From the IMG/VR virus record IMGVR_UViG_3300020222_002168, positions 35,529 through 99,528 of that record: a stretch of DNA of 64,000 bases. The stretch is one strand, 5' to 3'. Both the position numbers and the translations under genes were made by a program. This document shows positions 3,042-42,402 of this stretch, piece by piece. Under the pieces are notes generated by a model. The model saw nothing but the letters and a program-made list of their open reading frames with translations, was not told where the DNA came from and searched no databases. The stretch is from a virus. Each line of letters starts with the position of its first letter. The stretch's first letter is position 1.

Positions 3042-3122
3042 TGGCCTCCCCGGTAGGAATCGAACCGATAGTTATAACACTCCTTTTGAGAGAGCCGCCT
3101 TTACCATTTTGGCCATAGGGGC
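3042..3122 (-). tRNA. tRNA-Leu(CAA) 5' half joined to Arg(TCT)-like 3' half
   Basis: The 5' part (acceptor GCCCCTA, anticodon loop CTCAAAA, T strand ATCGG) matches the intact Leu copy at 2352-2432. The 3' part (CCTAC, CGGGGAG, G, CCA) pairs in only 4 of 7 acceptor positions. It differs in three bases from the 3' end of the Val hybrid at 5611. It forms the left boundary of cassette 1 and is unlikely to work as a continuous tRNA. Confidence 0.75.
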
Positions 3123-3126
3123 GTTC

Positions 3127-3204
3127 TGGAGCAACGGGTGAGATTCGAACTCACGGTTTTAGAGTTTTGCAGACTCTTGCATTGGGCCTCTCTGCCACCG
3201 TTGC
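3127..3204 (-). tRNA. tRNA-Cys(GCA), intact copy
   Basis: Acceptor GCAACGG/CCGTTGC perfect, anticodon loop CTGCAAA, U73, T arm GTGAG-TTCGAAT-CTCAC, encoded CCA. The anticodon and D arms are nearly identical to those of the chimeric copy at 2437-2514. Confidence 0.93.
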
Positions 3205-6125: not shown

Positions 6126-6200
6126 TGGCGGTCCCAACGGGAGTCGAACCCGTCCCTGCGCCGTGACAGGGCGCTATACTAACCGATATACTATGGAACC
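6126..6200 (-). tRNA. tRNA-Asp(GTC)
   Basis: Acceptor GGTTCCA/TGGGACC, anticodon stem GCGCC/GGCGC with loop CTGTCAC, T arm ACGGG-TTCGACT-CCCGT, encoded CCA, G73. Confidence 0.94.
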
Positions 6201-6339
6201 ATTAAGTGATAGCACGGTTTACTATCCTCTTGCTACCTGATGTTGGCAGATTATATCTGCCGTTTACCGGTATCACAGGCTTCCCGCTTCGGACAAGGTT
6301 GGGATTGATCGATCCCTACGAGCCATGCTATCACTTAAT
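6201..6339 (-). ncRNA. stem-closed RNA between tRNA-Asp and tRNA-Tyr
   Basis: ATTAAGTGATAGCA (6201-6214) is perfectly inverted at 6326-6339, closing a segment of about 139 bases that exactly fills the space between two tRNA genes. Inside are further hairpins, GGGAT/ATCCC and GGCAGAT/ATCTGCC. No reading frame of interest runs through it. RNase P and 3' tRNA processing would release it. Family unknown. Confidence 0.6.
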
Positions 6340-6424
6340 GGTGGATGCGGTAGGACTCGCACCTACGATGTTTCCCTGTCACGGTTTTACAGACCGCTGC
6401 CTTCGCTGCTCGGCACACGCATCC
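6339..6424 (-). tRNA. tRNA-Tyr(GTA)
   Basis: Class II with long variable arm, acceptor GGATGCG/CGCATCC, anticodon loop CTGTAAA, T arm GTAGG-TGCGAGT-CCTAC, encoded CCA. It is the first tRNA behind the array promoter. Confidence 0.92.
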
Positions 6425-7138: not shown

Positions 7139-7714
7139 TCATCCCCTTTCTAATATCTGATCGGCAGCGCCGAACTCGATCATCTCTTCTGAGGTCATGT
7201 AGACATCGTGTGCAGGCAGAAGTCGGGTCTTGATGATGCGACCATCTAGTCCTGTGGTTTCTTTCAGGACATTGTACATGGCTTGATTAAGTCGATCTGT
7301 TTCTTTTCTCTGTGCTTTGATATCATGATACTTGCCCATCTCTTCTGTGGATGACATCTGATGGCACATGATACCGCAGTTTTTGGTAACATAACGTTCA
7401 CTCTTTGAACCGGAAGCCACGATGAGGAAAGCGGCACTCATCACAGATCCATATCCGATAGTCCGTATGGGAATCCGGCTGTTCCTCATCATGTCTATGA
7501 GTCCAAGTGCTTCGTAGAGATCTCCTCCTTGGCTATTGACATAAAGAGTCAGCACTCGATCTGGTCTAGGATCTATGTTCTCGTAGGCCAGCCATTTAAC
7601 AGTTTCGTTTACGCTTTCCTCATCTATCTCCCCGACGAGGAAATGTACTCCTGCATCTTGGAATTTAACATTCTGGCGGTCTTGGGCGTTGAAATCGTCC
7701 AATCTTTTTGACAC
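7139..7714 (-). CDS. clpP: ClpP-like serine protease subunit
   Basis: 191 residues with the ClpP fold landmarks: LTLYVNSQGGDLYEALGLIDMM (about residues 55-76), the nucleophile region GYGSVMSA (Ser about 93), IMCHQM with the catalytic His (about 118) and DVYMTSEEMIEFGAAD with the Asp (about 170). ClpP forms the barrel that degrades substrates fed by ClpX or ClpA. The window also encodes ClpS and a tmRNA whose tag ends in LAA, a ClpXP signal. The phage subunit may assemble alone or with host ClpP; ClpP-like folds also serve as capsid proteases in some phages. Confidence 0.85.
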   Translation of the reverse strand: MSKRLDDFNAQDRQNVKFQDAGVHFLVGEIDEESVNETVKWLAYENIDPRPDRVLTLYVNSQGGDLYEALGLIDMMRNSRIPIRTIGYGSVMSAAFLIVASGSKSERYVTKNCGIMCHQMSSTEEMGKYHDIKAQRKETDRLNQAMYNVLKETTGLDGRIIKTRLLPAHDVYMTSEEMIEFGAADQILERG

Positions 7715-13594: not shown

Positions 13595-13824
13595 TTGTCG
13601 TCTTTCTTATCAGTCTTTTGTTTTTCCAACGAGTGCTTTAATTCTTCTATGACCTTGTGGTCTACGACAGTTATATCATGAGGATCAAAAATCTGCCATT
13701 TGATAGATTTCCAATATCTGCTGAATAGATTATTTAAAGCCAAAATTGCTAATCCAATGACGATCAGTGATACTGAAAATAATACCGATCCTACTAAAAA
13801 ATTTACTGCTGATTGAATATCCAT
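13591..13824 (-). CDS. small single-pass membrane protein
   Basis: 77 residues from ATG at 13824. Hydrophobic FLVGSVLFSVSLIVIGLAIL (about residues 9-28), then a charged cytoplasmic-type tail. Function unknown. Confidence 0.65.
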   Translation of the reverse strand: MDIQSAVNFLVGSVLFSVSLIVIGLAILALNNLFSRYWKSIKWQIFDPHDITVVDHKVIEELKHSLEKQKTDKKDDK

Positions 13825-21279: not shown

Positions 21280-21966
21280 TTATCGTATTTCTGGGAACAG
21301 ACAATCCTGGATAAACACACGGACATCTTTTTCTGACAGACCCAGGCTGACCATGACTCTAGGTGTGTGCGGATTCTGCTTTTGGTTCTGTGCGTAATAG
21401 TTTTGTTCGAATGTATTGTCTGTGATGGTCCATGCAGTGTCCATAACTGTGGCAGTATAGTTATATACGCACTTTTCTGCTAGCTCTCGGATCTGTGCCA
21501 GTTCGGTTTCGTCCTGTACATTGCCCGCGGCCACCATCGAGGGACTGAATATGCGCTGAGCCCAATCTGGCAGAGCACGTTCTTTTCGCCACTCTAGGCT
21601 AGCTACTTCTTCTGCGAACCATTCGCACATAGGATGTTCACGATCTGAGGTAGGTGAATAATCTACGAAACAGCCCGTGATCTTGTTTTTACCTGCGATG
21701 ACATCAAATCCGAATATAGGAGCAGGATTGTTTGTGTGTGGAAATACGCAACAGTGCATCATCCACAGTCCCTTGGTTTCTCGGGCGTCGACTACGTCTA
21801 CGTGTGCCCTTCGATAGAATGTTCCAGTCCACACTCTATTGACCCAACCGGGCTGATTGAATCTGTCCATACCCGGTTCGAATATTTCTAATCCTGTCCG
21901 AGAAAAATGATTTATGAATAGATCTTGTATCTCAATCAGCGTCTGCCAGACATTACTGTTTGACAT
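21280..21966 (-). CDS. ferredoxin-dependent bilin reductase (PcyA/PebS/PcyX type)
   Basis: 228 residues with FGFDVIAGKNKITGCFVDYSPTS (about 87-109), the bilin-binding signature region of ferredoxin-dependent bilin reductases, plus a matching length and C-terminal YYAQNQKQNPHTPRVMVSLG. These enzymes reduce biliverdin to phycobilins with electrons from ferredoxin. It overlaps by 14 bases the heme oxygenase gene, whose product is its substrate. Cyanophages carry pebS, and a related pcyX with a heme oxygenase is known from marine virus-like metagenomic DNA. Which bilin is made cannot be told from sequence reading alone. Confidence 0.82.
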   Translation of the reverse strand: MSNSNVWQTLIEIQDLFINHFSRTGLEIFEPGMDRFNQPGWVNRVWTGTFYRRAHVDVVDARETKGLWMMHCCVFPHTNNPAPIFGFDVIAGKNKITGCFVDYSPTSDREHPMCEWFAEEVASLEWRKERALPDWAQRIFSPSMVAAGNVQDETELAQIRELAEKCVYNYTATVMDTAWTITDNTFEQNYYAQNQKQNPHTPRVMVSLGLSEKDVRVFIQDCLFPEIR

Positions 21967-23115: not shown

Positions 23116-23553
23116 TTATTTGATTTCGACGATATCGATTACTCGAGGTTTCATTTCTTCTGGAATTTCTCGCTCGATTCTGATCTGTAGAATACCGTTT
23201 TTAATAGTTGCGCTGACGATTTTCATATGTTCAGCGAGAGTAAACTTACGCTCGAAATCTCTAAGAGCCAACCCTCTATGTAAAAACTCTACTGTAACAT
23301 CATCGTTCTTATCTCTTTCGCCAATGATGGTAAGTTCGTTTTGTTCTACAGTGACCTTGATTTCGTCTTTTTCGAAGCCAGTGACAGCCATCTCGATCTC
23401 GTAGAGATTTTCCTGTAGTTTGGCTACATTGTATGGAGGATAATTATTGCTGATCTGGTTGGAGAATCGACGCTCCATGTCATCGAAAATCCTATCAAAG
23501 CCAACTAATGCTCTGTTTAATGCCTGTGTGTCAAAACGTTGTAATTGTGTCAT
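23116..23553 (-). CDS. small heat-shock protein (Hsp20/IbpA)
   Basis: 145 residues: FDRIFDDMERRF start, alpha-crystallin domain with NLYEIEMAVTGFEKDEIKV and LHRGLALRDFERKFTLAEHMKIVSATIKNGILQI (A-x-x-x-N-G-I/L-L signature, about 112-124). Binds unfolding proteins and hands them to DnaK and GroEL. Preceded by a promoter (23638-23666), a late-type TATAAATA and the leader shared with groES and dnaK. Phage Hsp20 proteins are common in cyanophages. Confidence 0.9.
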   Translation of the reverse strand: MTQLQRFDTQALNRALVGFDRIFDDMERRFSNQISNNYPPYNVAKLQENLYEIEMAVTGFEKDEIKVTVEQNELTIIGERDKNDDVTVEFLHRGLALRDFERKFTLAEHMKIVSATIKNGILQIRIEREIPEEMKPRVIDIVEIK

Positions 23554-23561
23554 TTTAAAAT

Positions 23562-23579
23562 CTCCTTAAAAAGTAAGAT
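23562..23579 (-). promoter_or_regulatory. shared chaperone leader element (hsp20)
   Basis: ATCTTACTTTTTAAGGAG on the minus strand, including the ribosome site. It differs in one base from the identical copies ahead of groES (25625-25642) and dnaK (27571-27588). Confidence 0.6.
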
Positions 23580-23631
23580 AAGTTTGGGCCCTATGCCCTT
23601 GTGCTGAACCCATATAGGTGTCCTGCAACAT

Positions 23632-23666
23632 ATTTATATTTTACTGTCTCTGTCTGTGCGAGTCAA
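23632..23666 (-). promoter_or_regulatory. promoter of hsp20: sigma-70 and late-type elements
   Basis: TTGACT (23661-23666), 17 bases, TAAAAT (23638-23643), directly followed by TATAAATA (23633-23640 read on the minus strand), the T4 late-promoter sequence. The gene may be expressed both early and late. Confidence 0.65.
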
Positions 23667-23691
23667 TGGGGGACTGGCCCCCATTGGATCA

Positions 23692-25615
<1,924 letters not shown>

Positions 25616-25624
25616 TCGTATTTT

Positions 25625-25669
25625 CTCCTTATAAAGTAAGATTAACGAGGGACCCGATGGTGTCCCTAT
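25625..25669 (-). promoter_or_regulatory. groES leader: shared element plus hairpin
   Basis: ATCTTACTTTATAAGGAG (25625-25642) is identical to the dnaK leader. Just upstream, AGGGAC/GTCCCT forms a 6-base hairpin (25650-25669) between dnaK and groES. It may mark an RNA processing point or a weak terminator. Confidence 0.55.
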
Positions 25670-25671
25670 TA

Positions 25672-27564
25672 TTAATTCTTGGTTTCTGTGTATGTAGCAT
25701 CGACTACATTATCATCCTGTGATTCCGGATTGGGTTTTTCTGCTTGTTCTTTAGCAGTACGTTTTTCCAAAAGAATCTTCATCGCAGGATAAACTTTTTC
25801 TAGTTCAGATTTAATCTTATCTGTGTCATCCCCTTTGACTGCTTGTTCAACTGAGGCAACAGCAGATTCGATTTCTGATTTTTCTGAGTCTGTGAGTGTG
25901 TCTTTAAATTCCTCTACGTCACGTTTTACTTCATATACAGTAGATTCTGCTTGATTCCGTGCTTCTATTAATTCTCTGGCTTTTTTGTCTGCATCAGCAT
26001 TGGCTTCGGCTTCTTTGATCATTTTTTCGATTTCTTCTTTGCTAAGACCAGAGTCAGACTTAATCGTGATCTTATTTTCTTTTCCTGTGCCTTTGTCTTT
26101 GGCAGAGATGTGCATGATGCCATTAGCATCGATGTCGAAAGTAACTTCGATCTGTGGCATACCTCTACGTGCCGGTGCGATTCCTTCGAGGTTGAATTCG
26201 CCTAGCATTTTGTTATGTTGAACTAACTCTCTTTCTCCCTGGAATACCTTGATAGTTACAGCAGGTTGATTGTCTTCTGCGGTGGAAAATGTCTGCTGCC
26301 CCTTAGTAGGAATAGTGGTATTTTTTTGGATGATCTTGGCCATCACACCGCCCAATGTCTCGATACCGAGGCTCAGCGGAGTGACATCTAGCAGAAGAAC
26401 ATCTGTTCGATCACCGCCTAGCACAGCACCTTGTACTGCGGCACCAACTGCTACCGCTTCGTCGGGGTTAACGTCTTTACGAGGAGCCTTGCCGAACAAT
26501 TTCTCGACTTCTTCCTGGACCTTAGGCATACGGGTCTGACCGCCAACGAGGATGACTTCATCGATGTCTGCAGCCGTAACAGCAGCATCCTTCATAGCGA
26601 TGCGGCAGGGTTCTAGGCTGCGTTGGATAAGATCCTCAACTAGGCTTTCTAGTTTAGACCTAGAAATCTTAACTACTAGATGTTTCGGACCAGACGCATC
26701 TGCGGTTACATAAGGTAAGTTAACTTCTGTCTGAGCGCTGTTCGACAGTTCGATCTTGGCTTTTTCTGCAGCATCTTTAAGACGTTGCAATGCTAGGACG
26801 TCGTTCTTGAGATCTACACCGTTTTCTTTCTTAAACTCATCGACCAAGAAATCCATGATACGTTGATCAAAGTCTTCGCCTCCCAGGAATGTATCACCAT
26901 TAGTCGACAACACTTCGATCTGCTTGTCACCGTCGACATTTGCGATTTCAATGATCGAAACGTCAAATGTACCGCCTCCTAGATCATACACGGCGATTTT
27001 TCGATCTTTCTTATCAGTTTTATCAACACCATAAGCCAGCGCGGCCGCTGTAGGTTCGTTGATGATACGCAGAACTTCTAGACCAGCGATCTGTCCAGCA
27101 TCTTTGGTTGCCTGTCTTTGACTGTCATTGAAGTAAGCAGGAACTGTGATAACTGCTTTGGTAACAGTTTCGCCTAGATAATCTTCTGCGGTCTTCTTCA
27201 TCTTGCGAAGGACTTCAGCAGAGATTTGGGGCGGTGCTAGTTCTTTGCCCTGTGCTCGAACCCATGCATCTCCGTTTTTAGATTCCATAATTTCGTATGG
27301 CATTAAATCGATATCTTTTTGTACAGCCTGTTCTTTGAACTTGCGACCGATCAACCGTTTGGCTGCATAAATGGTGTTTTTGGGATTAGTTACGGCCTGT
27401 CTTTTAGCGCTGGCTCCGACCAGGATTTCGTTTTCTGTGTAGGCAACGATGCTAGGTGTAGTGCGAGCACCTTCTGAATTTTCGATTACTTTGGATTTTC
27501 CTGCCTCGATGATGGCCACGCACGAATTGGTGGTTCCGAGGTCAATACCGATGATCTTAGACAT
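25672..27564 (-). CDS. dnaK: DnaK (Hsp70) chaperone
   Basis: 630 residues with the Hsp70 signatures [13 protein letters not shown] (residues 4-16), [13 protein letters not shown] (about 193-205) and the [17 protein letters not shown] block (about 339), then a substrate-binding domain and lid ending in an acidic tail. ATP-driven folding chaperone. No dnaJ or grpE lies in the window, so host co-chaperones may serve it. Behind a late-type promoter at 27647. Confidence 0.97.
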
Positions 27565-38045: not shown

Positions 38046-38351
38046 CTACTTGAAGAAGATCAATGCCATCATCACGGCCTGGAGCATGAATCCAAAACCC
38101 AGGGTGACGATATTGAACATGTCTCGTTTGGCAGCGGCTTTGGCGAACAGCAGGGCCAGTCCAAACCAAACCATCAAAACCAAATCCACCGCAGGCATCT
38201 TGTCAGTGATGCCTGCCATCACTGCTAAGAAACTAGGTATAGTGGCCGAGTGTAAGACCAAAATGGCCACCCATTCTAGGCTCTCCGGGCTCAGCCGACT
38301 GAAATATCTTTTGAGACCGTCGCGGACCTTTTCTATGTCAAATGTTTTCAT
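38046..38351 (-). CDS. small membrane protein
   Basis: 101 residues from ATG at 38351 with three hydrophobic segments (LEWVAILVLHSATIPSFLAVM, AVDLVLMVWFGLALLFA, MFNIVTLGFGFMLQAVMMALIF). Overlaps the wall-hydrolase stop by 14 bases. Could help lysis, but no holin-specific feature is visible. Confidence 0.65.
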   Translation of the reverse strand: MKTFDIEKVRDGLKRYFSRLSPESLEWVAILVLHSATIPSFLAVMAGITDKMPAVDLVLMVWFGLALLFAKAAAKRDMFNIVTLGFGFMLQAVMMALIFFK

Positions 38352-38883
38352 TTGGTTTCCTGTAGAAGATGTGGGCTCCAATTTTAATTATCCTTTCTAG
38401 TTTCCAGTTAGGGCTGACGTAATCAGCATGATAATACAATGCTTTATTTAAGCTGTCAAGACGGAATCCTTCCAGGTAGACTTTTTTAGCCACTGCATAA
38501 CTATCGGCATAGGCCTTATCGTTGATCTTGCGATTTCTATGGTTAGCATCGCAGTACCAAGAGAACTGGCAGATAACCGTGGAAAAGATCACGGTCTTTT
38601 CGTAGACTACTCCGCATACCGTTTTTGGAAATCTCGGATCCTTCACCCTGTTTAGTGTGACCTGAGCGACAGCTACTTTACCTTCGAACGGTTCGTATCC
38701 CGCTTCGCGATAGATGTTCAGAGCAAGACATTCTAGATCTTTTTCTATGCTCTCCGCAGATACAAATTGATATCCTTCTTGTCCGCTTAACTTTTGAAAT
38801 TTCCATCCGGTTATCGAACTTACTACAAACATCACCAACAACAGCGATACTGCTATACTACCCAATCTAAGAGATTGAAACAT
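38338..38883 (-). CDS. SleB/CwlJ-like cell-wall hydrolase
   Basis: 181 residues: N-terminal membrane anchor (LGSIAVSLLLVMFVVSSI), then LECLALNIYREAGYEPFEGKVAVAQVTLNRVKDPRFPKTVCGVVYE, the hydrolase_2 signature with its catalytic Glu (about 62). Cleaves peptidoglycan glycan strands. Start taken at MFQS behind AAAGGAGG. Likely the phage endolysin or a virion-independent wall enzyme; signal-anchor release would suit lysis. Confidence 0.85.
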   Translation of the reverse strand: MFQSLRLGSIAVSLLLVMFVVSSITGWKFQKLSGQEGYQFVSAESIEKDLECLALNIYREAGYEPFEGKVAVAQVTLNRVKDPRFPKTVCGVVYEKTVIFSTVICQFSWYCDANHRNRKINDKAYADSYAVAKKVYLEGFRLDSLNKALYYHADYVSPNWKLERIIKIGAHIFYRKPNENI

Positions 38884-38929
38884 TGTGTTCCTCCTTTCAT
38901 TTGGTGTCACGATCTTCTGTGACATTACA

Positions 38930-39129
38930 CTACAGGGAGTTAACTTCACGAGGCTCTATAAGAGAACCCTTGGTTCGTGTAGTCGTCTCCATCAGTTACG
39001 ACACGCTGCCTTGCTGTTTACAAGACTGCGCTTTCACCTTTGGCGAGCATGGCTTCCCGAATCTCACGGGTTTCTCATTGGCCAAGACTCGCGGGTCTGG
39101 ACATTAAACTGGTTCGCTCCGTCCGGACC
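38930..39129 (-). ncRNA. structured RNA candidate of unknown family
   Basis: A 200-base stretch without reading frame folds into successive hairpins: GGTC-CGGAC/GTCC-AGACC (39121-39129 with 39094-39102); a nested stem GCGAG, GGC, CCCG (39088-39092 to 39043-39047); CGC/CTTG with CAAG/GCG near 39004-39030; GTCGT/ACGAC (38982-39002); and CTACA-CGA-GGTTCT closed by AGAGCC-TCG-TGTAG (38982-38930). The segment fills the space between the HNH nuclease and the wall hydrolase. GACGACTACACG near 38975-38988 recalls a group I intron core, but no splice sites are visible. Confidence 0.55.
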
Positions 39130-40568: not shown

Positions 40569-41084
40569 TTAATTTTGTAAAACTCTTGATACTGCGGTAA
40601 TCACTGAGGCAATGCGGCCGATGTCACGAAGTTGTTCTACTGTATAGCCTTCCTTCTTTAGTGTTTCATAGTGTGCTTTGACGCAGAAATGACACTTACC
40701 TACGATCGAAGCCGATAATGCGTATGCTTCGAATCTGGCCTTAGTAGTTCCGCCATGTGTAGCGATGGCATTCATACGTAACTGTGCCGGCAATCCGCTG
40801 AGTGATTCATCCTCGGCCATTTCTACGTAAGGATACCAAACATTGTTCATGGCCATTAAACTGGCTGCGGTAATTGCGGCTTCGGATTCTCGTTGATCTG
40901 CGATCTGACTCTGCATCCAAGTCCATAGTTTTGAATTACCTGTGGCAAAAGCCGCCGCGAGAGCAACCGCTTCTGCTTCTTCCTGTGGCAGAGTAGAACG
41001 CTTGACTACGGCATCGATATTGAGTCGTGTGTCCTTAGCGTAGTCAGGAATAGTATCCTTGATTTGATCTACCCATGCAGTCAT
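40569..41084 (-). CDS. ahpD: AhpD-like alkylhydroperoxidase
   Basis: 171 residues with the AhpD active-site motif KCHFCVKAHYETL (C-x2-C-x3-H, about 131-143). Carboxymuconolactone-decarboxylase fold. AhpD regenerates AhpC, and here it follows ahpC with no gap. Defends against peroxides. Confidence 0.92.
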   Translation of the reverse strand: MTAWVDQIKDTIPDYAKDTRLNIDAVVKRSTLPQEEAEAVALAAAFATGNSKLWTWMQSQIADQRESEAAITAASLMAMNNVWYPYVEMAEDESLSGLPAQLRMNAIATHGGTTKARFEAYALSASIVGKCHFCVKAHYETLKKEGYTVEQLRDIGRIASVITAVSRVLQN

Positions 41085-41642
41085 TTAAGCCACCTTTAGT
41101 TTTTTGGTTTCTAATGTATCTGCACCTACTTGACGGTTACACTCACAGAGTTCGCCAGTTTGTAGTGCATCAAGAATACGCAGAGTTTCTTCTGCGTTAC
41201 GGCCAACGTTCAAGTTATTCACAGTAACATGCTGGATGACATTGTCTGGATCAACGATGAATGTTGCGCGAAGGGCCGCACCCGCCGGAACAAAGAACAC
41301 GCCCAGTTGCTCAACAAGACTCAGTTCACCGCGCTGTGTGTCAGCGAACTGAACGTGCTTGATCTTAGCAAGGTCGCTGTGTGCTTTCTGCCAGCCTAGT
41401 TTGCAGAACTCATTGTCTGTGCTTCCAGTCAGCAATACTGCATCACGGTCTGCGAAATCTTGTTGTAATTTATCATAGGCAACGATTTCTGTGGGGCAAA
41501 CGAAAGTAAAGTCTTTTGGATAGCATACGATAACTTTCCATTTACCTTCAAAAGACTTTTCAGTGATGTCAAAAAACTTATCACTACCTGGATTGATACC
41601 GGTCACTACAAATGCTTCTAATCTATCACCAATTGTTTTCAT
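41085..41642 (-). CDS. ahpC: AhpC peroxiredoxin
   Basis: 185 residues, 2-Cys peroxiredoxin: DFTFVCPTEIVAY with the peroxidatic Cys (about 49) and a C-terminal ELCECNRQVGADT with the resolving Cys (about 168). Reduces peroxides. Transcribed from the promoter at 41793-41822 together with ahpD. Confidence 0.93.
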   Translation of the reverse strand: MKTIGDRLEAFVVTGINPGSDKFFDITEKSFEGKWKVIVCYPKDFTFVCPTEIVAYDKLQQDFADRDAVLLTGSTDNEFCKLGWQKAHSDLAKIKHVQFADTQRGELSLVEQLGVFFVPAGAALRATFIVDPDNVIQHVTVNNLNVGRNAEETLRILDALQTGELCECNRQVGADTLETKKLKVA

Positions 41643-41792: not shown

Positions 41793-41822
41793 AGTATATA
41801 ACCAACGGTCAGTAGGGGTCAA
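41793..41822 (-). promoter_or_regulatory. sigma-70 promoter of ahpCD
   Basis: TTGACC (41817-41822), 18 bases, TATACT (41793-41798) on the minus strand, just after the tmRNA terminator. Confidence 0.75.
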
Positions 41823-41825
41823 GAA

Positions 41826-41849
41826 AAAAGTGGCCCGAAGGCCACTTTT
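41826..41849 (-). terminator. terminator after tmRNA gene
   Basis: AAAAGTGGCC/GGCCACTTTT, a perfect 10-base stem with CGAA loop, bidirectional, U-rich on the far side. Confidence 0.9.
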
Positions 41850-42144
41850 GGTATTTTGGGAAACAAGGCATACCAACCCCGTGGAGACTACGCCGCTAGG
41901 CGAGTTTCTCCAAAAAATGCGTCGTTTGCATTTATAGTTTTGCTTGATTTACAGTCATCGCCTACTGTGTTGCCGTCTCCGTTATCTCACCCTGTCGAAA
42001 CCGGTCGGACCCCTCAGAAACACACTGTACAGATATTAGCAATGGCCTCTGTGGGACGATCAGTGTGCTTTTGGTGGATCCGGGGGGAATCGAACCCCCG
42101 TCCAGAATGCCTTCACATCGAAGGATGTACAACAATACTGTTAT
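41850..42144 (-). ncRNA. ssrA: circularly permuted (two-piece) tmRNA
   Basis: On the minus strand the acceptor piece comes first: T arm GGGGG-TTCGATT-CCCCC, acceptor strand CGGATCC, A and CCA ending at 42072. About 59 bases later the coding piece starts at 42012 with GGGTCCG, which pairs 7/7 with CGGATCC including the G3-U70 alanine wobble, followed by the tmRNA-typical GGTTTCGACAGGG. The tag frame (41929-41888) reads GCA AAC GAC ... TAG = ANDAFFGETRLAA. The order 3' part before 5' part is that of two-piece tmRNAs of alpha- and some betaproteobacteria and cyanobacteria. It rescues stalled ribosomes and tags products for ClpXP. Outer ends are approximate. Confidence 0.92.
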
Positions 42145-42402
42145 TTAACTATCTCTTGACTCTAATGTCAATACTTTTAGATTTAGTAACATGTTTTCTA
42201 CTGTTAGTTTGGTTATAGTACTTAGTAGAATGACTTTGTCATCGAACGTGTATTCGGGCTTGTCAAACATTTCTAATATGCTAGTCGCCACCATCTTATA
42301 GGCCTGTTCTTTGCCTACGGCCAATCTATCCCAAGGTATGGAATCCTGTCCTTCTACCTCTTGTGCTATATCTACTAGGAGATCTAGATCTACTTTATGC
42401 AT
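42145..42402 (-). CDS. small conserved phage protein
   Basis: 85 residues, all helical (MHKVDLDLLVDIAQEVEGQD...), with PWDRLAVGKEQAYKMVATSILEMF. Common in T4-like phages. Function unknown. Confidence 0.7.
   Translation of the reverse strand: MHKVDLDLLVDIAQEVEGQDSIPWDRLAVGKEQAYKMVATSILEMFDKPEYTFDDKVILLSTITKLTVENMLLNLKVLTLESRDS

Follow-up and report, generated by a model that had tools for sequence, protein, structure and literature searches.

Phage tmRNAs have usually been noted and then passed over, or taken as relics of their hosts. The window considered here, a stretch of 64,000 nucleotides (bases 35529-99528 of a 99,528-base IMG/VR virus record), carries a circularly permuted tmRNA gene, and it raises the question of whether such a gene is an ordinary host ssrA acquired recently or a working gene of the phage itself. 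We consider it very probable that the phage encodes a functional tmRNA in circularly permuted form, and that the gene came from a recombining phage pool and not from a recent host copy.

Permuted tmRNAs in phages are not new in themselves. Among the 133 unique phage tmRNA structures of Buchholz et al. in 2022, 53 were two-piece, and 50 of those came from marine or aquatic phages (PMC9004378). As a single pattern scan also returned at least 120 IMG/VR stretches with the permuted order, the window gene is a member of a common class. Two-piece tmRNAs appear to form a large pool that belongs to phages, with at least 170 unique examples seen here; a 2025 tmRNA database lists 79 unique ones from bacteriophages, all forms included (PMC11915505). 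What is added here are tags that appear to be restricted to viruses, and tag and intervening segment (IVS) parts that appear to have been swapped independently.

Anatomy of the tmRNA gene

An earlier note, made from the letters alone, had proposed a permuted two-piece tmRNA at this site, and the gene was recognized by both ARAGORN and Rfam. ARAGORN places a permuted tmRNA (tmRNA*) with the tag ANDAFFGETRLAA at 41797-42164 (-). The Rfam model RF01850 (beta_tmRNA) aligns with 42185-41825 along its full length, positions 1-331 (171.5 bits, E 2.4e-53, gathering 84), so that the entire coding piece, pseudoknot regions included, is covered, and RF04321 (tmRNA_permuted) matches 42134-41888 (139.8 bits, gathering 47). 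The encoded order, which is acceptor piece, IVS and then coding piece, was obtained alike from ARAGORN, from Rfam and from reading the sequence. The positions given in the earlier note were exact: G1 is 42012, the CCA ends at 42072, and 59 bases lie between them. The features of the gene, in the direction of transcription, are as follows.

42166-42171 (-), -35-like hexamer TTGACA, read from the sequence; it aligns with the 5' part of the beta_tmRNA model, which bears the promoter
42148-42143 (-), TTAAAT, at a 17-nt spacer from TTGACA
42141-42148 (-), TTAAATAA, candidate -10 or T4-late-like element, also present 5' of AhpC (41695-41688)
42072-42134 (-), amino-acid acceptor piece, encoded first (RF04321, ARAGORN; 5' end approximate)
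42099-42095/42087-42083 (-), T-stem within the acceptor piece, with the loop TTCGATT
42082-42076 (-), 3' acceptor strand, followed by discriminator A73 at 42075 and CCA at 42074-42072
42013-42071 (-), IVS of 59 nt, with arms GCACACTG/CAGTGTGT that lengthen the acceptor stem and a conserved internal cap
41888-42012 (-), coding piece from G1 (42012) to the tag stop, with the GGTTTCGAC D-region and first pseudoknot region (RF01850, RF04321)
41888-41929 (-), tag reading frame GCA..TAG, ANDAFFGETRLAA and stop (ARAGORN)
41850-41887 (-), 3' part of the coding piece, with the second pseudoknot region of the beta model (RF01850 alignment)
41826-41849 (-), intrinsic terminator, AAAAGTGGCCTTCGGGCCACTTTT and then a T run, read from the sequence as an inverted repeat

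The gene has all the parts of a permuted tmRNA: A73, CCA, a T-arm, a resume codon, a stop-terminated tag frame and pseudoknot regions. The acceptor strands GGGTCCG (42012-42006) and CGGATCC (42082-42076) pair 7/7, including G3-U70 (42010/42078), as the earlier note had stated, and 23 distinct acceptor stems among 170 unique phage relatives show that pairs 4-6 covary across the IVS with G3-U70 held constant. Covariation is also seen in the first coding-piece hairpin, which is 87.5% paired in 10 distinct stems (1000 shuffles: mean 65.5%, maximum 80%). An integration-site relic was considered and ruled out, since the gene is complete with promoter and terminator; a match in Pseudomonas MR13 adjoins an integrase, with no tmRNA call there. 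The element TTAAATAA occurs eight times in the window and always on the coding strand, compared to 3.4 occurrences expected across both strands. It is a candidate phage promoter element, with sites (-) at 13730, 16026, 19851, 32814, 38444, 41688, 42141 and 53726.

Mosaicism and the IVS hairpin

To compare the parts of these genes, 196 ARAGORN-called permuted viral genes (170 unique, on viral contigs that are fragments) were split at ARAGORN boundaries into T-arm/3' acceptor, IVS, 5' acceptor/D-region, pseudoknot 1, tag and 3' part. Over the 170 unique genes, similarity of the IVS is uncorrelated with similarity of the pseudoknot, tag and 3' part (r of -0.04, 0.04 and 0.04; Mantel p of 0.81, 0.18 and 0.12). 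Other parts are correlated, namely the T-arm with the 5' acceptor (0.67) and the tag with the 3' part (0.47), and in a small set of 13 host genes IVS similarity does track the T-arm, 5' acceptor, pseudoknot and 3' part (r ~0.5). At 85% identity the phage IVSs fall into 25 families, 17 of which occur with more than one acceptor stem, and 152 of 231 pairs with similar IVSs are discordant in other parts.

The window gene illustrates this pattern. Its IVS is 95-97% identical in three relatives (L195, L141 and L015) and belongs to the same family as those of L331 and L332, and the six genes of this family have three acceptor stems and five tags. Between the window and L015 the IVS is 97% identical, the flanking genes are 72-77% identical in nucleotides, and the tag is different; between the window and L187 the tag is 95% identical and the IVS is unrelated (37%). 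In one locus, L122, a double-crossover recombinant can be read base by base: both flanks, the tag and the 3' part are those of L074 (99-100%), and the central T-arm/IVS/5' acceptor tract is identical to that of L035. Phage permuted tmRNAs are thus mosaics, in which the histories of the tag, the IVS and the acceptor/T-arm block differ. Since the families recur in independent metagenomes, assembly chimeras are an improbable general explanation; an apparently precise IVS swap may have arisen by ordinary recombination plus later compensatory change in the acceptor stem. We found no prior report of tmRNA mosaics in the openly licensed literature.

The IVS and the acceptor strands fold jointly into a single long hairpin (z -3.6 against shuffles for the window, and -4.5 to -7.9 for five other IVS families). 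Members of a family differ in the outer helix by compensatory changes but hardly at all in the tip. In a 68-nt family the helix has double changes in 10 of 12 pairs, and 0 of 500 shuffles did as well; the tip of this family was fixed by the search pattern, and it is nearly constant in a separate family sample too. Nearly invariant tips on compensating stems would also be expected if module exchange were only apparent, the product of convergence and selection acting on a constrained, vertically inherited tip and on fast-changing stems and tags. We judge this unlikely, as L187 and L223, close relatives of the window at the same locus, have unrelated IVSs, whereas the more distant L015 and L331 share that of the window; the recombinant L122 argues against it as well, and so do the copies of the tips that sit behind tRNA genes.

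These copies emerged when the tips were searched for alone. The 12 copies of the window tip that were examined are all inside phage tmRNA genes, and of 31 copies of the tip of a 67-nt family 30 are inside tmRNA genes and one is cut by a contig end; a model of the latter family finds a relative in the spacer just 5' of the L048 tmRNA as well. The tip of the 68-nt family is distributed more widely, with 18/28 copies in tmRNA IVSs, 8/28 in hairpins adjoining tRNA genes and 2/28 capping stem III of hammerhead-like ribozymes (L348:11650-11770 and L361:1400-1510). The candidate ribozyme of L348 matches the RF00008 core (CUGAUGA..GAAA) at 30.3 bits (E 1e-4), below the gathering score of 48.5, and its stems I and III were read by eye. 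An 87-nt family has 20 tips inside tmRNA genes, one at a contig-end cut and four in tRNA arrays. Of 366 phage tRNAs, 36 have a long helix with such a tip directly 3', and many of these helices start at the CCA of the tRNA (CCATAT...ATATGG). A trailer scan located one in the window.

6199-6341 (-), capped hairpin from the tRNA-Tyr CCA to the first base of tRNA-Asp, with 18 net pairs and a 101-nt tip

This spacer, which is also present in L388, extends from a CCA to the first base of the next gene, as the tmRNA IVS does. The tRNA array of the window also contains the pair tRNA-Leu(CAA)/tRNA-Cys(GCA) twice, at 2352-2510 and 3042-3204 (-).

Apart from the tmRNA models, no known RNA family matched the IVS tips at the Rfam threshold in the window and 12 representative loci, nor was there an HDV-like match at that threshold in the loci scanned. 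The theta ribozymes, structured RNAs directly 3' of phage tRNAs, have been proposed to act in 3' processing (PMC10879173); the capped hairpins likewise lie directly behind phage tRNAs, but in them the CCA is inside the long capped helix. Our reading is that one architecture with exchangeable tips would serve the precursors of both tRNA and tmRNA, and the simplest guess at the role of the tip is that it keeps both ends together for processing. A broader proposal, tentative though quite possible, is that the IVS, far from being a spacer that could be dispensed with, is one of several exchangeable structured caps that spread among the stable-RNA hairpins of phages (tmRNA IVSs, spacers 3' of tRNAs, and hammerheads in their stem III). 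Such a cap would either act in cis in maturation or, once released, work as a small RNA on a target of its own; exchange of cap and tag would then retune ribosome rescue. That the phage gene may reprogram ribosome rescue, as the earlier note proposed, is possible.

Proposed working of the phage tmRNA

Expression, the processing enzymes, charging, tagging and a benefit to the phage are proposed here by analogy, with maturation, alanylation, delivery by SmpB and EF-Tu, tagging and recognition by ClpXP following established tmRNA biology (PMC3985003). The gene would be transcribed as a single precursor, in which the IVS is predicted to form a capped hairpin as an extension of the acceptor stem, keeping the two acceptor strands together. 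Excision of the IVS at G1 (42012), expected of RNase P, and after the CCA (42072), expected of tRNase Z or exonucleases, would yield a two-piece tmRNA. The host AlaRS would charge it via G3-U70, and host SmpB and EF-Tu would bring the charged RNA to stalled ribosomes. The released protein would gain ANDAFFGETRLAA, the LAA end of which should be read by ClpX. No SmpB was found in the 99.5-kb record, and the gene would therefore depend on that of the host.

A phage that brings no SmpB could also use its tmRNA as a decoy, tying up SmpB or AlaRS and blocking trans-translation in the host. There is precedent for an inhibitory tmRNA-like RNA of a phage in the TLD-only tmRNA of mycobacteriophage DS6A (PMC4131195, PMC11915505). 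The DS6A RNA has no tag coding sequence, in contrast to the window gene, and relatives of the latter keep a complete tag frame with its stop, the resume context and the pseudoknots, none of which a decoy needs; synonymous variation in the tag, equally unneeded, makes this explanation very improbable. A phage pool with virus-only tags and swapped parts makes it testable why phages keep a rescue RNA of their own, whether the tag alters which protease destroys the product, and what the tip does.

Other genes of the window may be related to protein quality control. One at 7139-7714 (-), adjoining the tRNA array, encodes a ClpP-type peptidase (PF00574, 6e-30) with Ser, His and Asp as expected from alignment to ClpP2, and its best PHROG families are head maturation proteases. 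A chaperone cluster at 23116-27564 (-) encodes Hsp20/IbpA-like, GroEL, GroES and DnaK proteins, all bacterial-like. A link of the tmRNA to protein quality control through the peptidase and chaperones is attractive, but the ClpP equally resembles the head maturation proteases.

Tag family, host and T-loop variants

The tag of the window is intact and ends in LAA before the stop TAG, as had been claimed, and its reading frame is kept in related phages. A degenerate pattern for ANDA[FY][FY]G[ED]x[RS]LAA* was used to search IMG/VR, where the family ANDA[FY][FY]G[ED]xRLAA occurs in 118 stretches, with the resume context preceding the tag in those inspected. The scan fixed most residues, and tag conservation is partly ascertained, so that conservation of the fixed residues is unusable as evidence; synonymous codings are usable. 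Relatives encode ANDAFFGETRLAA in three ways, all differences being synonymous, and the tag ANDAFYGEDRLAA in 13. A comparison with host genes, which the earlier note had suggested, gave no counterpart: there were 0 matches in 84,980 bacterial and archaeal genomes to a pattern that required one extra codon, GCN, and 0 in 399 Burkholderiales genomes to a looser 13-aa RLAA pattern. The tag type of the window appears to be virus-only in the collections searched. In a sample not chosen by tag, comprising 109 unique phage tmRNAs, there are 71 different tags, nine of the genes have an RLAA-type tag, and 101 end in [LIVM]AA.

The tmRNA lies in a run of genes for nrdA, nrdB, glutaredoxin, a PAAR protein, a DUF454 protein, two 2OG-Fe(II) oxygenases, an 85-aa protein, the tmRNA, AhpC and AhpD. 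The locus nrdA-nrdB-glutaredoxin-DUF454-tmRNA-AhpC-AhpD is kept in several related phages with differing tags, including the AhpC and AhpD genes directly 3' of the tmRNA (40569-41642, -). The commonest protein near the tmRNA, at 38338-38949, was tried as a functional partner; its product is an endolysin, and it therefore likely reflects a shared locus rather than a partnership. Permuted order is also seen in Stenotrophomonas phage Moby and Xanthomonas phages X1, XacN1 and Rb1, and in Moby and X1 the tmRNA gene is within ~4 kb of nrdA; unlike the window, these phages have the tags VAANDDSYTVRIAA, VAANDADYSVARYA, ANANTFDYALAA and ANDDNFRPALRLAA and other IVSs. Methylophilales phage Melnitz resembles the window in being an aquatic-type phage with tRNAs and a permuted tmRNA, but its tmRNA was reported as alphaproteobacterial-related with a glnA riboswitch (PMC9004378), while that of the window is of the beta type and has no glnA riboswitch match nearby at E <= 1.

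The two-piece tmRNA of betaproteobacteria is the "third lineage" of Sharkady and Williams (2004), as cited in PMC9004378. The window gene shares with the RF01850 tmRNAs the gene order, a tRNA-like domain with G3-U70, the coding-piece pseudoknots and the promoter/terminator layout. To this extent the host match drawn in the earlier note holds, as to gene order and betaproteobacterial model type, but not as to the IVS, which is 59 nt and capped compared to 30-42 nt in 13 Alcaligenaceae-type host genes. Those hosts have 10-aa tags, ANDESYALAA in 12/13 and ANDENFALAA in the other, compared to 13 aa in the window. Virus record, absent tag type and longer IVS all set the gene apart from betaproteobacterial host genes.

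A betaproteobacterial host is plausible, because the AhpC of the window is closest to those of Burkholderiales (65-69% identity). The permuted tmRNA, which the earlier note had offered as a host clue, is a weak one, since isolated phages of gammaproteobacteria (Stenotrophomonas, Xanthomonas) and of an acidobacterium (Tunturiibacter) carry permuted tmRNAs. Stenotrophomonas and Xanthomonas themselves are expected to use one-piece tmRNA. Most sampled Burkholderiales were also without the permuted gene, in a comparison whose sample is small: an exact pattern, which recovered known positives, found it in 5/30 genomes with the nearest AhpC and in 13/151 genomes from the family of one of these, and a loose RF01850 look scored part of the candidates. 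Three other sampled host genomes have a one-piece tmRNA with the tag ANDERFALAA or ANDETFALAA, and neither the IVS pattern N{50,80}, run on 399 Burkholderiales genomes, nor N{25,55}, run on 50, had a match. That the gene is an ordinary ssrA recently acquired from a betaproteobacterial host, with nothing phage-specific about it, is a view to which its score on the beta model (171.5 bits, compared to 161-169 for bacterial members) and the AhpC lend some color, but it is largely refuted and hardly credible given a tag type in no bacterial genome, an IVS unlike those of hosts in length and sequence, related phages that share the locus position with varying tags, and the few sampled Burkholderiales with a permuted gene. 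In viral metagenomics, permuted tmRNA should be regarded as an unreliable host marker.

The genome of Caldimonas mangrovi (L321, G008) has a permuted tmRNA with the odd tag ANDSIYLKRA, possibly on a prophage or other mobile element. The virus record carries, outside the window, genes for a TctA tricarboxylate transporter and ThyX (L330:12670-14157 and L329:1278-1970 (-)), with several radical-SAM proteins nearby. The window also encodes a ferredoxin-dependent bilin reductase at 21280-21966 (-) (PF05996, 1e-14; PcyA-like in NCBIfam below the cut-off); the AhpC of the same phage points to Burkholderiales and not to cyanobacteria.

The survey also exposed T-loop/D-loop variants, most of which escape ARAGORN. 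ARAGORN called 87 viral loci of the tag family, all but one with a tag of the family type. Some of the uncalled loci are cut by contig ends, and 11/11 that were scanned with Rfam match the permuted model; the idea that the uncalled relatives are split or one-piece copies was dropped, as they are permuted genes with non-canonical T-loops or contig-end cuts. In the tag family the T-loop is UUCRA in 80 parsed members, and the D-region, readable in 76, is GG in 76/76. Members with the T-loop GGCRG have AG in 14/14, several of these being near-identical, so that they amount to about five independent sequences. In L150 only position 55 is changed (UGCGA), and the D-region is again AG. In tRNA numbering, both partners of the 18-55 contact are altered together and 19-56 is retained, and an A18-G55 contact is proposed for these variants. 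Carriers of the GGCRG or UGCGA T-loop include L127, L150, L151, L172, L176 and L218, and most GGCRG tmRNAs were missed by ARAGORN. An 8-nt T-loop, UAUCGUAU, occurs with the D-region GG in L154, L181, L194 and L206, and L194 also carries a GOLLD RNA (RF02032, 175.8 bits).
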